Assembly (NCBI GenBank): GCA_024639785.1
Contig: JAHEGI010000022.1
Location: forward strand, 1-64,000
From: Cryomorphaceae bacterium
GTDB lineage: Bacteria > Bacteroidota > Bacteroidia > Flavobacteriales > Schleiferiaceae
Reading direction: 5' to 3'
Length of the DNA stretch: 64,000 bases
A program made the translations under genes and the position numbers. Shown in pieces: positions 54,914 through 64,000 of the stretch. Position 1 is the first letter of the stretch. Every line of letters begins with the position of its first letter. The notes beneath the pieces are model-generated. The model made no database searches. It was not told the origin of the DNA and saw nothing but the letters and a program-made list of their open reading frames with translations.

Positions 54914-56560
<1,647 letters not shown>

Positions 56561-56663: not shown

Positions 56664-57347
56664 CTAGAACAACGACTGGCTTTGGCTCGCATAGTAGAGC
56701 ATAGCGCCCCCAAGAGGTAAGAACAGATTGTCAAGGCCATAGGCCAAGTAGGCCTCGAGGATGGTTAGTAAGAGCAGACCTATCAAGAAAGTGAGGTGAA
56801 TAGGCAAACCAAAGAGCAGTCCTAGACCGATGCCAAGGAGGAAAAAGGTGAGGGAGCCCGCGAGTGATTTCCCTGCCATGCCGGGCCATTTGAGGGAGGG
56901 GATTTTACCTCCCCATTCGGCGCCCACATCGAGAAAGCCCAGGACTAACATGCCAAAAAAGTACCCTTCATCACCTTCGAAATTGGGCCCACCCCAGGTG
57001 TGGATGCCTACTTCCTCTGCTCGAAAGAAATAGACATAGCCCGTCACCAGGCTAATGCCCAATGGGAATACGACTTCCCCCCATGTTTTGCGCGGTACAT
57101 CGTGGATGCTGCTCAGAATCTTGAGGTATTTTGAAAGGGCCAGGGTGCCGGCAAAAAGGAGGCCCATGAGGCAAATTTCGACGGGGGAAATCAGGAAGGG
57201 AAGCACACAGGCCACGAGGGCCGACGCGATGTGCAGCATTTTGCGCGTGAGCACTGGGGAAACTCCTCCAAGACGTTTAACCGCTTCGGTGCCGCCAAAT
57301 AAGAGGAGGTACACTCCGGACAGTAGAAGGAAGTTTAAACTGATCAT
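56664..57347 (-). CDS. Phytol/dolichol-kinase-like membrane protein (CTP-dependent kinase/CdsA superfamily)
   Basis: 227 residues with about six or seven membrane helices. TRKMLHIASALV near residue 34, GEVVFPLGISLVTG near residue 90 and GKSLAGSLTFFLLG near residue 158 match the pattern shared by phytol kinases, dolichol kinases and relatives, which use CTP to phosphorylate long-chain alcohols; DNLFLPLGGA near the end matches the D-N-x3-P segment. Annotation pipelines usually call it phosphatidate cytidylyltransferase. It is the last gene of the five-gene operon, overlapping the GNAT-like gene by 4 nt (ATGA). Confidence 0.78.
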   Translation of the reverse strand: MISLNFLLLSGVYLLLFGGTEAVKRLGGVSPVLTRKMLHIASALVACVLPFLISPVEICLMGLLFAGTLALSKYLKILSSIHDVPRKTWGEVVFPLGISLVTGYVYFFRAEEVGIHTWGGPNFEGDEGYFFGMLVLGFLDVGAEWGGKIPSLKWPGMAGKSLAGSLTFFLLGIGLGLLFGLPIHLTFLIGLLLLTILEAYLAYGLDNLFLPLGGAMLYYASQSQSLF

Positions 57348-58309
57348 TCGGCTAAAGCTTCAAATTCATAGGAGGCGTAGGTTCGGAAAACGGTTATGTC
57401 TGGATCGGGCATTCGATTGACCCGATTTTCGGATTGCACGAGGGCATAAATACAGCGTTTGGCTCCTGCTTCCTGTGCGCGCACATGCAAGGCACCCGCG
57501 ACGGCGTTTCCAATTTTTTTGGCTTGGAATTCAGGGAGCAAGCCGATGGTTTTGAAAATCAACGTTCCATCGTCCAGATAAAACAAATAGGCAAAGCCGA
57601 CGCGGCGGTCATCAATTTGGACCCAATACAGCCAGGGTTGACCCCCATGGCTTTCGCCTAGAGACTTGGCCCAGCCTGTGAACTCATCGGGATTCAAGGT
57701 CTTGTAGCCCCAATTGCCCCGGAAAATCGCTTCAATCATGTAGTGCAAGGCGGTCCATTCTTCCTCGTGATCCATGCGAAAGGGAGTCAGGTTGAATCCT
57801 TCGGTATTCCAGTCTGTCAAGAAGGACTCGGAGATGGCAATAACCCCTTGATAGTCGGTTCTATAGGCGGATCGGTAGTGGGTAATTTTACTCGGATGTA
57901 ACTGCTCCATCCAAAGCCCATAGTGGGCTTGATTGCGCCATTCTCCGGGAAAAAGGGCTTGATCATCGCTCCACGTGATGAAGCGATACGGCAGGAAGGT
58001 TGAGCCTTGTAAAGGGCCAACCCAGCTACCTGGGAATGCCAATCTAAGCTCCGACCATTCGGATTGAAACGCCTCGAAATCTTGGCTTTTGCTTTCAAAA
58101 AAACCAAAGGCCCATTGGTCGTTTTCCATGCGGTACAGTCCGCAACAAAAGTGGCTGCCGTCATACCAGGTGCAGTCCGGTTGATTCAGGAAGAAGGACC
58201 AACATTGGCGCAAAACGGTTTCGTTTGGGTCGTAGTCCGTATAGTGTGCATAGAGCTGTTGACGCAAGACGAGGTAGTTGTCGGGTGGGTTCTGGTTAGG
58301 TCGCGTCAT
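57344..58309 (-). CDS. GNAT-like acyltransferase with N-terminal extra domain
   Basis: 321 residues. The C-terminal 150 hold a GNAT fold: FRMDHEEEWTALHYMIEAIF, a central strand VGFAYLFYLDDG and the acetyl-CoA-loop region IGLLPEFQAKKIGNAVAGAL. The first 170 residues (CWSFFLNQPDCTWYDG, FGFFESKSQDFEAFQ) may be a degenerate second GNAT domain. The acceptor is unknown. The ATG overlaps the upstream gene by 14 nt; an in-frame ATG 42 nt further up is possible. Confidence 0.7.
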   Translation of the reverse strand: MTRPNQNPPDNYLVLRQQLYAHYTDYDPNETVLRQCWSFFLNQPDCTWYDGSHFCCGLYRMENDQWAFGFFESKSQDFEAFQSEWSELRLAFPGSWVGPLQGSTFLPYRFITWSDDQALFPGEWRNQAHYGLWMEQLHPSKITHYRSAYRTDYQGVIAISESFLTDWNTEGFNLTPFRMDHEEEWTALHYMIEAIFRGNWGYKTLNPDEFTGWAKSLGESHGGQPWLYWVQIDDRRVGFAYLFYLDDGTLIFKTIGLLPEFQAKKIGNAVAGALHVRAQEAGAKRCIYALVQSENRVNRMPDPDITVFRTYASYEFEALAE

Positions 58310-60605
58310 GGGGAGCGGAGATTCGATGAATTTTTGATTGGGTCGCATCAAGGTAAATGGATTCGCCGCTGCGAAGCTGCTGTGTGATATCCGGCACGGC
58401 AATGAGGGTGGGAAGTCCCAACTCTCGGGCCACGATAGAAGCGTGGGAAAGGAGTCCGCCTTGCTCCACGATGAGCGCCTTCGCCTGTCCAATGACGATG
58501 CTCCAACCTGGGTCCGTATGTTTGGCGACCAAGATATCAAATGCCGGATAAGGCCCGGGTTGGAAGGTGGGCATCACTAAGACTCGGCCTTCCATCTGGC
58601 CTGGAACTACACATTGACCGCTCCAGTGGTCGCAGTGGGCGAGTTCGGGACGATGGATGGGGGCAGGATCCCCCGGCATGGCTGCAAAGGACCGAGGGTA
58701 GACGTCGTCGAGGTGTGCCTTGGCCTGCTCCTTTCGCTCGGCGATCAGGCGCTTCCAGCCGGGGTTCGCCCCCTGCTCCCATTCGGAAATCTGTAGCCAA
58801 AACACATCTTCAGGAGCATCCAACAGGTTGCCTTGTGCGTAGTGATGGCCAGATTCCAATAGAATTTTTCGCAACCACGCGAAGGCCGAAGAACGCAGGA
58901 GCCGGAGTCCTTCTCGTTGTTGGATGAATTGGCGAAGTTTGCGGATGCCCCAGGGGTAGCCTTTTTCTGAGGGCCAGCGCGGGGCTGGGAGGATGGGCTG
59001 CTGAGCGAGGGCTTCGAGGGTCTCTGCCAAGACGTCAAAGCGGTCGAGGGGGCTGGGGTCCTCTAGTCTTAATTCATTGGGGAAGCGACCACCAAATCGA
59101 TGGAGGTACTGGGTCCACCCTGCGCCGGCATCAGGTAGCTTCTTGAGGCCCTGTTCAAAGGCGAGGGAATCCCGTTGTTGTAGGGATTGTCGGAGGATGG
59201 GCTGCGCCCAAATTTGGTGTGCATGCGTTTGGAAGGCCCGAAGTTGTTGTCCACTGGGGGTATCCATCGTCAAATAGGTCCGCAGGGCATCTTCCGAAAA
59301 TTTCTTTTGCGCCCAACCCAAAAGGGTCATCAGGGCGGTGTCGTTTTCGACGGTGATGTACCATTTTCGGAGCCAATCATTTTCGAGACTTTTCCATAGT
59401 TGAATCAGGGTTTCCGGCTGATCGGCCCTCCAATCTCGTGCCCCGAGTCGTTCAAAATCGACTAGAATTTGGCGGGTAAAGCGCTCACGAACCCGACGAA
59501 AAGTGAGCAGTTTCCACAGAACGATGGGTCCGTAACAAAGCTTTAACCAGAGATTGGCCTGAAGAGATTCGGGGAGGAAAGGCTGGGCCTTTGTTTCGGC
59601 CGAAATCATGCGTTCCAAATTCTCTTTATTGCGCCCATAGCCGGGTAAAAATGCCATCATCGCATACCAATGGTTCATGACATAGTACATGCGTCCGTGG
59701 TAGGAGGACACGAGGTTTTCAAAGATGTTGGAATGCCGGGAGAGCTTTTGGCGAGAGACCCCTGAAGCCGCGAGGAGATCCTGGTAGACATGTTGGTAAA
59801 GACGCTGTGCTACGGACGCGGTCATTGGCCGAACGGTTCCCGCATAGGATTCTGCCAAATTGGAATTATCCAGCAGCCAGGGTTCCTGGTGCCATTCTCG
59901 CGTAACTGGGCGCGCTTGGAGAACGTAGAGCCGCCCGTTAGCATAGGACCACTCAAGGTCCATGGGGCGGCGGTAGGTATTTTGGACGCGTCGGTAGAGG
60001 TGGTGGAGGGCCTTCGCCAGGGCGGGCGTGAAGACACTGTGATCCACCCTGAATTCCTGGGTGCGGCCGTCGTGCCATCGCCAGCCGGTAAAGGCACTTG
60101 GTGCCTGACGGCGGTAGATTCTTCCGCTGGGATTGCAACCGAGTTCTTCGACGGGGAGGCCTTGGACTACGTATGCGCACAGGCCAGGGGCGAGATTGAG
60201 GAGGTAACGTTCATCATGGGTGAAGAGCACACCGGAAACACTGGGGTCGGCCAAGAAAGCTTGGACCACCACCCCATGATCCTCTTCTGTATCCGGCAGG
60301 CTTTGGGCCACGCGAAGACAGGCAGCGGGTAATTCCTCTAGCGTGACACCTAACAAGGTTAAGAATGCGCCGGCGGCGGCAGTTTCTTCGGTGTCTTCCG
60401 TGGCGGAAGAACTCCGAACGGCAAAGCGGTCTGGATGGCCTAGCTGGGAGGCGATGGCCTTGAGGTCAAGTTTCTGATCTACCAGAAGGTCCCGAGCATG
60501 CAGTGAGATAAACGGTAGTCCCGGAAACCCTGCATCCCGCAGCCGGGTGAGGCCTTTGGCCTTGTTGCCGATGGGAATGGTTAGAACCATAGCGCCATTT
60601 GACAT
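58296..60605 (-). CDS. PEP-synthase/rifampin-phosphotransferase-like phosphotransfer protein
   Basis: 769 residues. An N-terminal ATP-grasp domain (residues about 10-275) shows KAKGLTRLRDAGFPG, AVRSSSATEDT, VVQAFLADPSVSGVLFTHD and LQARPVTRE. The last 80 residues are the swivelling phosphohistidine domain with GGLLSHASIVARELGLPT, whose histidine would carry phosphate. The 400-residue middle is helical and lacks the PEP/pyruvate TIM barrel, as in rifampin phosphotransferases. Inferred reaction: ATP-driven transfer of a phosphoryl group through histidine to a small or lipid acceptor. It overlaps UbiA by 25 nt (alternative ATG at 60590 would give 10 nt). Confidence 0.82.
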   Translation of the reverse strand: MSNGAMVLTIPIGNKAKGLTRLRDAGFPGLPFISLHARDLLVDQKLDLKAIASQLGHPDRFAVRSSSATEDTEETAAAGAFLTLLGVTLEELPAACLRVAQSLPDTEEDHGVVVQAFLADPSVSGVLFTHDERYLLNLAPGLCAYVVQGLPVEELGCNPSGRIYRRQAPSAFTGWRWHDGRTQEFRVDHSVFTPALAKALHHLYRRVQNTYRRPMDLEWSYANGRLYVLQARPVTREWHQEPWLLDNSNLAESYAGTVRPMTASVAQRLYQHVYQDLLAASGVSRQKLSRHSNIFENLVSSYHGRMYYVMNHWYAMMAFLPGYGRNKENLERMISAETKAQPFLPESLQANLWLKLCYGPIVLWKLLTFRRVRERFTRQILVDFERLGARDWRADQPETLIQLWKSLENDWLRKWYITVENDTALMTLLGWAQKKFSEDALRTYLTMDTPSGQQLRAFQTHAHQIWAQPILRQSLQQRDSLAFEQGLKKLPDAGAGWTQYLHRFGGRFPNELRLEDPSPLDRFDVLAETLEALAQQPILPAPRWPSEKGYPWGIRKLRQFIQQREGLRLLRSSAFAWLRKILLESGHHYAQGNLLDAPEDVFWLQISEWEQGANPGWKRLIAERKEQAKAHLDDVYPRSFAAMPGDPAPIHRPELAHCDHWSGQCVVPGQMEGRVLVMPTFQPGPYPAFDILVAKHTDPGWSIVIGQAKALIVEQGGLLSHASIVARELGLPTLIAVPDITQQLRSGESIYLDATQSKIHRISAPHDAT

Positions 60606-61447
60606 AGGACGTAGGCCATCACGGCGGATAGTTGCAAAAGTTGGCTATGGCGCCGGATAGGGTTCTTTCCATAGAGAAATAGGCCCGCCAACAGCATACC
60701 TAAGGCGGCGGCGAGCAGGCCGCGATTGAGCGGCAACCCAGTGGAGTCAAAGGCAAAAAGAGCAGCTAGGGTGAGCAGAAATACGAGGACTGCCGAACCT
60801 TTTGGGCCAATCCGGGAAGAATAGCTGTCTCGGTAGCTGGTTTCTTCTTCGGGCGTTAGACATTTTCGAGCTACTTCGAGCTGGGCACTCAAAGCCAGAA
60901 TACCCCAGCCGTGGGACCAAATGGCATTTGGCCAGTCTACGCTCTGGGTGAGTGCTGCATAGGCTATCCATTGCAATAACACCATTTGGAAAAGCATGAC
61001 CAAATTGTAGAGCCAAAATCGCGGCTTGAGCCATGCCAACGGGCCAACTTCATAGCGAGCGATGATGGAATAAAGGAGTAAGCCTGCAGATAGCACCCCG
61101 GACAAAGGGTCCAAAGCCACATGAATACTGATGAAAATCCCTCCGTTGGCATAGCCCAGACGGTTGAGTTCCTGTACAGTGATGAGCCCACGTTGGAGTG
61201 GGCGTTCGGGATGATGGAGGTCATCAACTTCTTTGTCGCGCAATTCATCAATGATCCGGGTGTGTAACATGAAGGACAAGCCGGCAACTCCCAAAGCAGC
61301 ATATTTCCACCATGGGATTTCCGGATAGCCGAGACCTTGGAGCACTGCCGCGGTAGAAAGCAGGACGGCGGATGTGGTCACCAAAAGAATTCCCAGGGGG
61401 AAACGCTCTTTTTGGTATTGCCAAAATCTATGTGCAAATGAGCTCAT
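60581..61447 (-). CDS. UbiA-family prenyltransferase
   Basis: 288 residues with about eight membrane helices. The first Asp-rich motif is present in the variant RIIDELRDKEVDDLHHPERP, and the second motif in YRDSYSSRIG. Such enzymes move a polyprenyl group from its diphosphate to an aromatic or other acceptor within the membrane. The subgroup with a RIxDE...HPERxLQRG motif is not one with a known product as far as I can tell. Start overlaps the DUF3419 gene by 4 nt (ATGA). Confidence 0.85.
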   Translation of the reverse strand: MSSFAHRFWQYQKERFPLGILLVTTSAVLLSTAAVLQGLGYPEIPWWKYAALGVAGLSFMLHTRIIDELRDKEVDDLHHPERPLQRGLITVQELNRLGYANGGIFISIHVALDPLSGVLSAGLLLYSIIARYEVGPLAWLKPRFWLYNLVMLFQMVLLQWIAYAALTQSVDWPNAIWSHGWGILALSAQLEVARKCLTPEEETSYRDSYSSRIGPKGSAVLVFLLTLAALFAFDSTGLPLNRGLLAAALGMLLAGLFLYGKNPIRRHSQLLQLSAVMAYVLCQMALWF

Positions 61448-62397
61448 GGTCGGTGGTAGATATGATAGCGGTGATAAAATGGCACCCGATCCTGGAAAGG
61501 AGGTGCGATGCGGCACCAAGATTCAAGAAAAAATGCCGGGGGCGTCGTTTGAAAGCGATGATCCCAAAAAACCAAGGTAGAACCTGAGGTGGTGGATTGA
61601 TTTATGGTTCGAAAGAAGTCATCTATACCCTCGGAAGGGTAGCCCTCTAAAATATCTGAAGCATGGATAAATCGGGGTGCTGGAGGTAGTTTTTGGAGTG
61701 CCTGCTGCAAGCCCTCGGGATGGAGGAGGATCCTAGGTTGCACATCGTGCAGATCTCCTTTCAGGTAGGGGAGGTCCCCATGTGCATGACCACCAAACAA
61801 GAGGTAGTCTAAATAGGGATTGTCGGCCAGGCGGTGCGTGGCTAAACACTGCTCAAATTGGGTTAGGTAGTTGGGGGTAACCGCGGAACGACCTTGATTC
61901 TGGATCAATCCGGGATGGCGCGCTTTGGTATTGACGCGTTCGGGGGAGAAATAGCGTTGGGTGAACCATCGCCAACGCTTCGATTGCCACTGGGAACTAT
62001 GGTAAAAATCAAGTTGAGATGGAATATCCGTTGTTTCATAAAGCGCTTCTCTTGTTCTCCGAGAAACCAATACGGGGAGCAGCGTTCGGCTAAAGGTTCG
62101 CAAATAGCCTTCAAGTCGGCCGGCATGCAGCAATCCTCCTTTGAGCGCAAATGCACCTGCACCAAAGAGGCGATCCCGATGGGGGCTGTTCAGGGCAAGG
62201 ATTTTTTGCTCAATGTGATTCAATTGGGCGACTTCTGTGTCATAAACGTGAATCCTGGGAATGCCGCGGTGTAATAATTCCAGGGCGTGGTCTCCACCCG
62301 AGGCAATTAAGTGTACCTCATCGCAAGGGAAATCACTCCATGCTTTCCACAGAAGGCGAGGATCTTCCCAAGATTGGGCATAGTGGAGGGTGGCCAT
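61444..62397 (-). CDS. DUF3419/BtaA-like S-adenosylmethionine 3-amino-3-carboxypropyl transferase
   Basis: 317 residues. YAQSWEDPRLLWKAW near the start and HLIASGGDHALELL (SAM-binding loop) followed by VYDTEVAQLNHIEQKI match the DUF3419/BtaA family, whose characterised members transfer the aminocarboxypropyl group of S-adenosylmethionine to diacylglycerol, the first step to betaine lipid. FGGHAHGDLPY and SDILEGYPSEGID are conserved later. No BtaB N-methyltransferase is adjacent. The acceptor here is therefore open. It is the first gene of the operon. Confidence 0.78.
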   Translation of the reverse strand: MATLHYAQSWEDPRLLWKAWSDFPCDEVHLIASGGDHALELLHRGIPRIHVYDTEVAQLNHIEQKILALNSPHRDRLFGAGAFALKGGLLHAGRLEGYLRTFSRTLLPVLVSRRTREALYETTDIPSQLDFYHSSQWQSKRWRWFTQRYFSPERVNTKARHPGLIQNQGRSAVTPNYLTQFEQCLATHRLADNPYLDYLLFGGHAHGDLPYLKGDLHDVQPRILLHPEGLQQALQKLPPAPRFIHASDILEGYPSEGIDDFFRTINQSTTSGSTLVFWDHRFQTTPPAFFLESWCRIAPPFQDRVPFYHRYHIYHRP

Positions 62398-62504: not shown

Positions 62505-62590
62505 GTCCGAGTGGTGAAATAGGTAGACACGAGGGACTTAAAATCCCTTCTTCAGTGATGGAGGTGCGGGTTCGATTCCCGCCTCGGGCA
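62505..62590 (+). tRNA. tRNA-Leu (TAA)
   Basis: 86 nt with a long variable arm, as expected for a class II tRNA. The acceptor stem GTCCGAG/CTCGGGC is 7 bp with one G-U pair, the anticodon loop is CTTAAAA with anticodon TAA, and the T-arm is GCGGGTTCGATTCCCGC. CCA is not encoded. An intrinsic terminator follows directly. Confidence 0.95.
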
Positions 62591-62594
62591 CATC

Positions 62595-63530: not shown

Positions 63531-64000
63531 TTAAAGTTTTATAAACCTTTCTTTTAGTAAGGTTTCGCCTATTGAGGAAACGATTGAGTACGTCCCACTT
63601 TGTAGTGACGAAACATCAATAAGCTCATTCGCATATGTACTGCCAAACAGCAATTCTCTCCCGCTACAGTCAAATATGATGTAGTCTATAGGTTTTTCAA
63701 AGCTTCCCGCAAGCATAATCGTGCCAAAAGTGGGGTTCGGTGACAGCCTCACATTTGGGGCTAGATAATCCGCAGCATCAAGACTGTTATAAACAGCACA
63801 AATGCCCCATTTGTTACGAATTTGTCCGCTAGAGGTAAAGGAAACGGACCCGATAATATCCCCCTGTAGATTGAAGTAACTGTATTGATAGCTTGCAACA
63901 ACCGAGTTAGCATCCCAACTGTAGAAGCGATGCAGAGTATTTGAATATCGGGCACCATCAGCACCAGTAAAAATGCCGGCACCATCAAACCTCGCAGTAG
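63531..64000 (-). CDS. Secreted protein with T9SS type A sorting domain (5' end outside the window)
   Basis: The frame is open from the stop at 63531 to the window edge, giving at least 156 residues of the C-terminus. The part before the tail contains FTGADGARYSN, FYSWDANSVVASYQYSYF and QGDIIGSVSFTSSGQIR, probably a beta-rich exported domain. The last 73 residues are a type A sorting domain: RLSPNPTFGTIML, IDYIIFDCSGREL, GTYSIV and the basic end KERFIKL. Known: this domain directs secretion through T9SS and is cleaved. Catalytic or binding function of the cargo cannot be judged from this fragment. Confidence 0.85.
   Translation of the reverse strand, partial: TARFDGAGIFTGADGARYSNTLHRFYSWDANSVVASYQYSYFNLQGDIIGSVSFTSSGQIRNKWGICAVYNSLDAADYLAPNVRLSPNPTFGTIMLAGSFEKPIDYIIFDCSGRELLFGSTYANELIDVSSLQSGTYSIVSSIGETLLKERFIKL

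Follow-up and report, generated by a model that had tools for sequence, protein, structure and literature searches.

What single task could bring together a DUF3419 protein of the BtaA type, a UbiA-family membrane transferase, a homolog of rifampin phosphotransferase (Rph), a tandem GNAT acyltransferase, and a phytol-kinase-like membrane protein? The question is raised by a locus of a Cryomorphaceae bacterium (Bacteroidota; assembly GCA_024639785.1), on contig JAHEGI010000022.1, of which positions 1 to 64,000 were analyzed (64,000 nucleotides [nt], referred to as the window). There, five leftward open reading frames (ORFs) follow one another in the order DUF3419, UbiA, PPS (the Rph-like protein), GNAT, and KIN (the phytol-kinase-like protein), and each junction is an overlap. 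An earlier note, made from the sequence of the window alone, had described this arrangement, and the orientation, the gene order, and the overlaps of 4 to 25 nt were all confirmed from the ORFs and the sequence. Here, we argue that the five genes form one operon for an unusual alkyl or prenyl lipid bearing an aminocarboxypropyl group, a tentative reading to which we assign a probability of about 0.45. Co-linearity, preservation of the catalytic signatures, and conservation and loss as a unit are observed for the operon, whereas the substrates, the order of steps, and the product of the pathway are what we infer.

The gene set is co-inherited. In a survey covering 88 genomes from the family of the window organism, searched with the PPS protein and then by local tblastn, the five genes were found together in close relatives at 31 to 75% identity, namely, in eight genus relatives, in some of which the operon is cut by contig ends, and in four genomes of a sister genus. 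Other genera have a divergent form (23 to 31% identity) of seven genes, HMGR-UbiA-PPS-DUF3419-KIN-GNAT-acyl-CoA ligase, which includes a homolog of HMG-CoA reductase (HMGR); the window operon is a reduced form of this set, without HMGR and the ligase. A phylum-wide sample of 395 genomes yielded ten matches to a UbiA profile (E < 1e-25), and the cluster was present at all nine that lie outside the window genome; in the G458 cluster, KIN was not recognized. When 84,980 species genomes were scanned for the motif [FLW][WYK]xYQxERFP, 506 UbiA relatives emerged. Among the best 80 of these, 50 loci had sufficient flanking sequence on both sides, and 41 of these have the complete set of seven (PPS in 49, DUF3419 in 48, the ligase in 47, GNAT in 46, and HMGR and KIN in 45 each). 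Median gene joints in the surveyed loci range from -4 to +3 nt. The cluster is carried by, among others, Dyadobacter, Sphingobacterium, Parapedobacter, Crocinitomicaceae, Saprospiraceae, Botryobacter, and an Owenweeksia metagenome-assembled genome, and with the divergent loci it reaches other families and classes of Bacteroidota. Pairwise distances among the five proteins correlate (r of 0.73 to 0.91), as shared ancestry alone would also make them do. The earlier note had made its proposal depend on co-occurrence of the five families in other genomes, and this co-occurrence proved strong in close and distant Bacteroidota alike.

Loss of the operon follows the same pattern. At least three genus relatives hold only operon debris beside groEL (loci L199, L200, and L201): the KIN C terminus in G039, a piece of DUF3419 fused to a piece of KIN in G046, and residues 1-68 of DUF3419 followed directly by residues 18-221 of KIN in G048. 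Judging by this debris, the operon was probably ancestral at the groEL site in the genus, is dispensable, and disappears as a unit through internal deletion. Such loss would be expected for genes that are meaningful only together. In G044, the 3' end of the operon lies at a contig edge.

Four of the family labels proposed earlier, namely, DUF3419, UbiA, PEP-synthase/Rph-like, and GNAT, held up with scores above the Pfam cutoffs. The window DUF3419 protein scores 63.3 bits against PF11899 (cutoff, 28.2) and a copy from the seven-gene form 225.7 bits; the motifs WED and S-x-GD are invariant in an alignment and in 69 of 69 cluster copies. UbiA scores 57.1 bits against PF01040 (cutoff, 34.2) and keeps the first Asp motif, DExxDxxxD, as DELRDKEVD in the window copy. 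GNAT scores 25.1 bits against PF00583 (cutoff, 20.7), and its AlphaFold model (pLDDT 84) resembles tandem GNATs such as MshD and Orf14-type proteins. PPS matches PPDK_N (69.6 bits; cutoff, 27) and PEP-utilizers (68.9 bits; cutoff, 23.1). Like Rph and other His-swivel dikinases, it has an N-terminal ATP-grasp domain and a C-terminal phosphohistidine domain with a conserved catalytic His, in LLSHASIVARE, and the nearest solved structures are Rph-type entries (5hv1-3 and 5fbs). Its central substrate region, however, is not aligned with Rph, and it scores 115.5 bits versus a cutoff of 999 on the Rph NCBIfam equivalog model. The phosphoenolpyruvate (PEP)/pyruvate barrel of PEP synthase is absent, as PPS stops after the swivel domain (residues 690 to 756 of 769). 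Taken together, the Rph layout, the catalytic His, and the missing barrel fit phosphorylation of a hydroxyl group. Genome G017 contains a further UbiA-PPS pair, with neither DUF3419 nor KIN (L041:9773-13323, minus strand), in which UbiA has an EVSRK motif in place of the second Asp motif; this second pair suggests that UbiA and PPS work as a functional pair.

The remaining label, phytol/dolichol kinase for KIN, found no match in Pfam but gained from homology. In 7 of 7 KIN-DUF92 fusion proteins, a KIN profile matched the N-terminal half (E values of 2e-26 to 1e-14), the C-terminal half being DUF92. DUF92 is the family of the plant phytyl-phosphate kinase VTE6, beside which a phytol-kinase-like partner would be expected, and the match to the DUF92-fused half thus makes the label reasonable, not proved. 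CTP_transf_1 was not found by Pfam among 13 KIN members, and the KIN profile matches a CdsA-like set only weakly. Invariant residues in the KIN alignment are RK, H, D-x2-A, K-x3-G, E, and G-x-DN. In VTE5/VTE6 phytol salvage, the likeness to the operon lies in this homology of KIN to the fusions; the difference is that a DUF92 partner was not found in 15 of 16 operon carriers. The fusions themselves, of about 465 to 500 amino acids (aa), occur in genus relatives and one other genome (L192-L198; genomes G044, G100, G040, G059, G057, G041, and G045) and are possibly two-step prenol/prenyl-phosphate kinases. Mutual exclusion of operon and fusions inside the genus fails, as G044 has both.

The HMGR homolog of the seven-gene form offers an indication of the substrate. 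In carriers with a mevalonate pathway, it is a second HMGR copy. Mevalonate-diphosphate decarboxylase was not found in five carriers (G348, G572, G579, G517, and G561), all of which have the HMGR homolog within the cluster; in G348, G572, and G517, the three of these five included in the HMGR and LytB searches (G579 and G561 were not), the cluster copy is the only HMGR and LytB is present, i.e., the methylerythritol phosphate (MEP) pathway. G458 and G643 have LytB and no HMGR, and their clusters contain a gene of the NAD_binding_4 (fatty-acyl-reductase) type instead. The catalytic Glu, Lys, Asp, and His of HMGR are present in the cluster copies, which lie outside the window, with equivalents of Glu559, Arg590, Lys691, Asp767, and His866 kept in nearly all 74. 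The position of human Ser684, a residue in contact with the HMG moiety in human HMGR structures, is occupied by Glu in 74 of 74. Probably, then, the cluster HMGR is a CoA-thioester-to-alcohol reductase acting on a substrate other than HMG-CoA, and on the simplest reading the neighboring AMP ligase would supply the thioester. A role as mevalonate supplier is disfavored by the MEP-pathway carriers and the Glu at the Ser684 position. In G080, about 13 kb from the operon, a fusion of an HMGR homolog to an APH-type kinase adjoins a fatty acid desaturase (L109:7011-9344 and L109:9332-10264, both minus strand), and this fusion too has Glu at the Ser684 position.

Additional genes in other copies of the cluster suggest that the molecule resembles a phospholipid. 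In 12 to 13 clusters, there are both a CdsA-type cytidylyltransferase and a CDP-alcohol phosphatidyltransferase, mostly between HMGR and UbiA, a membrane-anchored SRPBCC gene occurs in ten loci, and a diacylglycerol-kinase homolog occurs in one cluster. A paralog of phosphatidylserine (PS) decarboxylase is found in two clusters and is the second copy in both genomes. Taken with the enzyme families and the KIN-DUF92 homology, such lipid-type accessory genes, including the acyl-CoA ligase and the acyl-reductase, give good support to the lipid or isoprenoid role that the earlier note had proposed. In five loci (L123, L130, L141, L153, and L161), the operon is closely followed downstream by a gene of about 443 aa, which adjoins the ligase in three of the five and is identified in L123 as p450 by Pfam.

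These observations can be arranged into a putative pathway. In the seven-gene form, the AMP ligase would turn a carboxylic acid into an acyl-CoA, and the altered HMGR homolog would reduce it to an alcohol on site; in the window genome, with the reduced form, the alcohol would come from general metabolism or from outside. The long-chain or isoprenoid alcohol would be phosphorylated by KIN, as a member of the CTP-type polyprenol kinase family, and/or by PPS, using ATP to AMP via a phospho-histidine, to give an alcohol phosphate or diphosphate. The UbiA homolog would move the activated chain onto an acceptor, DUF3419 would add a 3-amino-3-carboxypropyl group from S-adenosylmethionine (SAM), and the tandem GNAT would acylate the amine. 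CdsA and the CDP-alcohol transferase may, in some lineages, convert the product to a CDP-activated phospholipid or, alternatively, the PS-decarboxylase paralog may strip the carboxylate. It is tempting to speculate further, though we hold this to be doubtful, that the outcome is a new class of bacterial lipids in several Bacteroidota classes, combining chains made by a repurposed HMGR, a non-canonical UbiA without the second metal site, and an acylated or decarboxylated aminocarboxypropyl head.

Several points weigh against the proposed lipid pathway. Only the first of the two Asp-rich metal-binding motifs of UbiA prenyltransferases was found; the second is replaced by an invariant [ED]-x2-R-K in 100 of 100 cluster copies (E-x2-RK-x3-P-x2-E in the window copy), which makes ordinary prenyl-diphosphate chemistry uncertain. 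Judged by these motifs, the UbiA homolog would be a prenyltransferase whose diphosphate site is altered or else a user of another activated chain. No Pfam model matches the window KIN, and a fold search of the PDB with a confident KIN model returned nothing significant. The substrate of GNAT could be something other than the amine of a lipid. Finally, as the window form is without HMGR and the ligase, the two forms of the operon may lead to different products.

Among other explanations, a chance neighborhood of unrelated genes has gene density in its favor and nothing else; since distant genomes keep the gene order and the overlaps, chance adjacency is ruled out and its probability is negligible. 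The operon might instead make a small, diffusible natural product resembling a meroterpenoid or an alkaloid, rather than a membrane-type lipid. The patchy distribution and repeated loss of the operon, the P450 genes adjoining five copies, and the occurrence of Rph-like and GNAT enzymes in antibiotic pathways would suit such a product, which we nevertheless consider unlikely, given that the surveyed neighborhoods show no recurrent gene obviously meant for export or resistance and that homologs of CdsA, CDP-alcohol transferase, PS decarboxylase, and diacylglycerol kinase indicate phospholipid chemistry. A variant of homoserine lipid synthesis, in which DUF3419 acts as BtaA on diacylglycerol, GNAT acylates the amine, and the remaining genes provide or alter the chains, is distinctly improbable. 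It draws on the membership of DUF3419 in the BtaA family, expected to transfer aminocarboxypropyl from SAM as in the BtaA/BtaB betaine lipid (DGTS) pathway, and on the place of GNAT where an N-methyltransferase would be. The operon differs from that pathway, however, in its constant UbiA, PPS, KIN, and GNAT genes, the first three of which this variant leaves unexplained, and no BtaB-type methyltransferase was found among recurrent neighbors of the 80 loci, the rest of the genomes not having been searched for BtaB.

HMGR, UbiA, and the phytol-kinase-like protein all come from isoprenoid families, and one could therefore imagine isoprenoid supply or salvage, with HMGR making mevalonate, KIN and PPS converting prenols to diphosphates, and UbiA forming a quinone-like compound. 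We give this little credence in view of the carriers without mevalonate-diphosphate decarboxylase, the three LytB-containing ones whose sole HMGR is the cluster copy, and the uniform Glu at the Ser684 position, and it leaves DUF3419 and GNAT unaccounted for. Some bacteria of the FCB group, the same superphylum, carry archaeal-type ether lipid genes, with geranylgeranylglyceryl-phosphate (GGGP) and digeranylgeranylglyceryl-phosphate (DGGGP) synthases (PMC7852524), and DGGGP synthase, also a UbiA-family transferase, is one of the few solved relatives of the UbiA homolog. A DGGGP synthase role for UbiA is nonetheless highly improbable, as its second Asp motif is lost, and membership in that pathway was rejected, because searches for GGGP synthase (PcrB family; PF01884) in the window genome and in G043, G058, G068, G572, and G517 found none.

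The lipid operon that we favor also has to be set beside other described systems. The ebo cluster is likewise a multigene Bacteroidota operon with a UbiA-like protein, EboC (PMC5133447, PMC9235831); however, no other ebo family is among the genes identified in the operon copies, and membership was rejected, with the window UbiA scoring 16.4 versus a 250-bit cutoff on the EboC model. Isoprenoid-linked lipocone operons are among the nearest described systems as well (PMC12419801). No account of this combination of enzyme families was found in the open PubMed Central literature, in agreement with the earlier note, whose author knew of no such pathway; subscription literature might hold one. Every family is known, and the pathway as combined is apparently new.

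Details of the reading frames and boundaries are as follows (Table 1). DUF3419 and UbiA overlap by 4 nt (ATGA, 61444-61447), as do GNAT and KIN (4 nt), and PPS and GNAT overlap by 14 nt, counting GNAT from its true start; a 398-aa GNAT ORF from TTG 58540 is an over-extension. The UbiA/PPS overlap is 25 nt if PPS starts at ATG 60605 and 10 nt if it starts at ATG 60590, the latter being the probable start because it better fits the N termini of relatives. A sigma-70 promoter scan found none, a result of little weight in Bacteroidota. Elsewhere in the window, positions 63531-63998 (minus strand) encode the C-terminal end of a protein whose tail, 'LSPNPTFGTIML...', resembles, by eye, a type IX secretion sorting domain.

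Table 1. Genes of the putative lipid operon and its boundaries in the window
Feature	Positions	Strand	Length and remarks
DUF3419 (BtaA-like), operon gene 1	61444..62397	-	317 aa; putative SAM-dependent 3-amino-3-carboxypropyl transferase; PF11899
UbiA-family membrane transferase	60581..61447	-	288 aa; PF01040
PPS, Rph-type ATP-grasp/phosphohistidine dikinase homolog	58296..60605	-	769 aa from ATG 60605; PPDK_N and PEP-utilizers
Tandem GNAT acyltransferase	57344..58309	-	321 aa; start ATG 58309; PF00583
KIN, phytol/polyprenol-kinase-like integral membrane protein, last gene	56664..57347	-	227 aa; KIN-DUF92 similarity
tRNA-Leu (TAA), divergent; upstream boundary of the operon	62505..62591	+	ARAGORN
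groEL, convergent; downstream boundary of the operon	54929..56560	+	ORF; same neighbor in genus relatives, with operon intact or debris

The UbiA marker of the set is present in hundreds of Bacteroidota genomes, culturable Dyadobacter and Sphingobacterium included, and those sampled carry the enzyme set. A shared substrate is thereby implied for poorly characterized families, namely, DUF3419, Rph-like dikinases, phytol-kinase-like proteins, and UbiA proteins without the second Asp motif, and the seven-gene form suggests that a core enzyme of the mevalonate pathway has been co-opted for the reduction of another thioester. Species descriptions of Bacteroidota list 'unidentified aminolipids', and the product of the operon could account for some of these.

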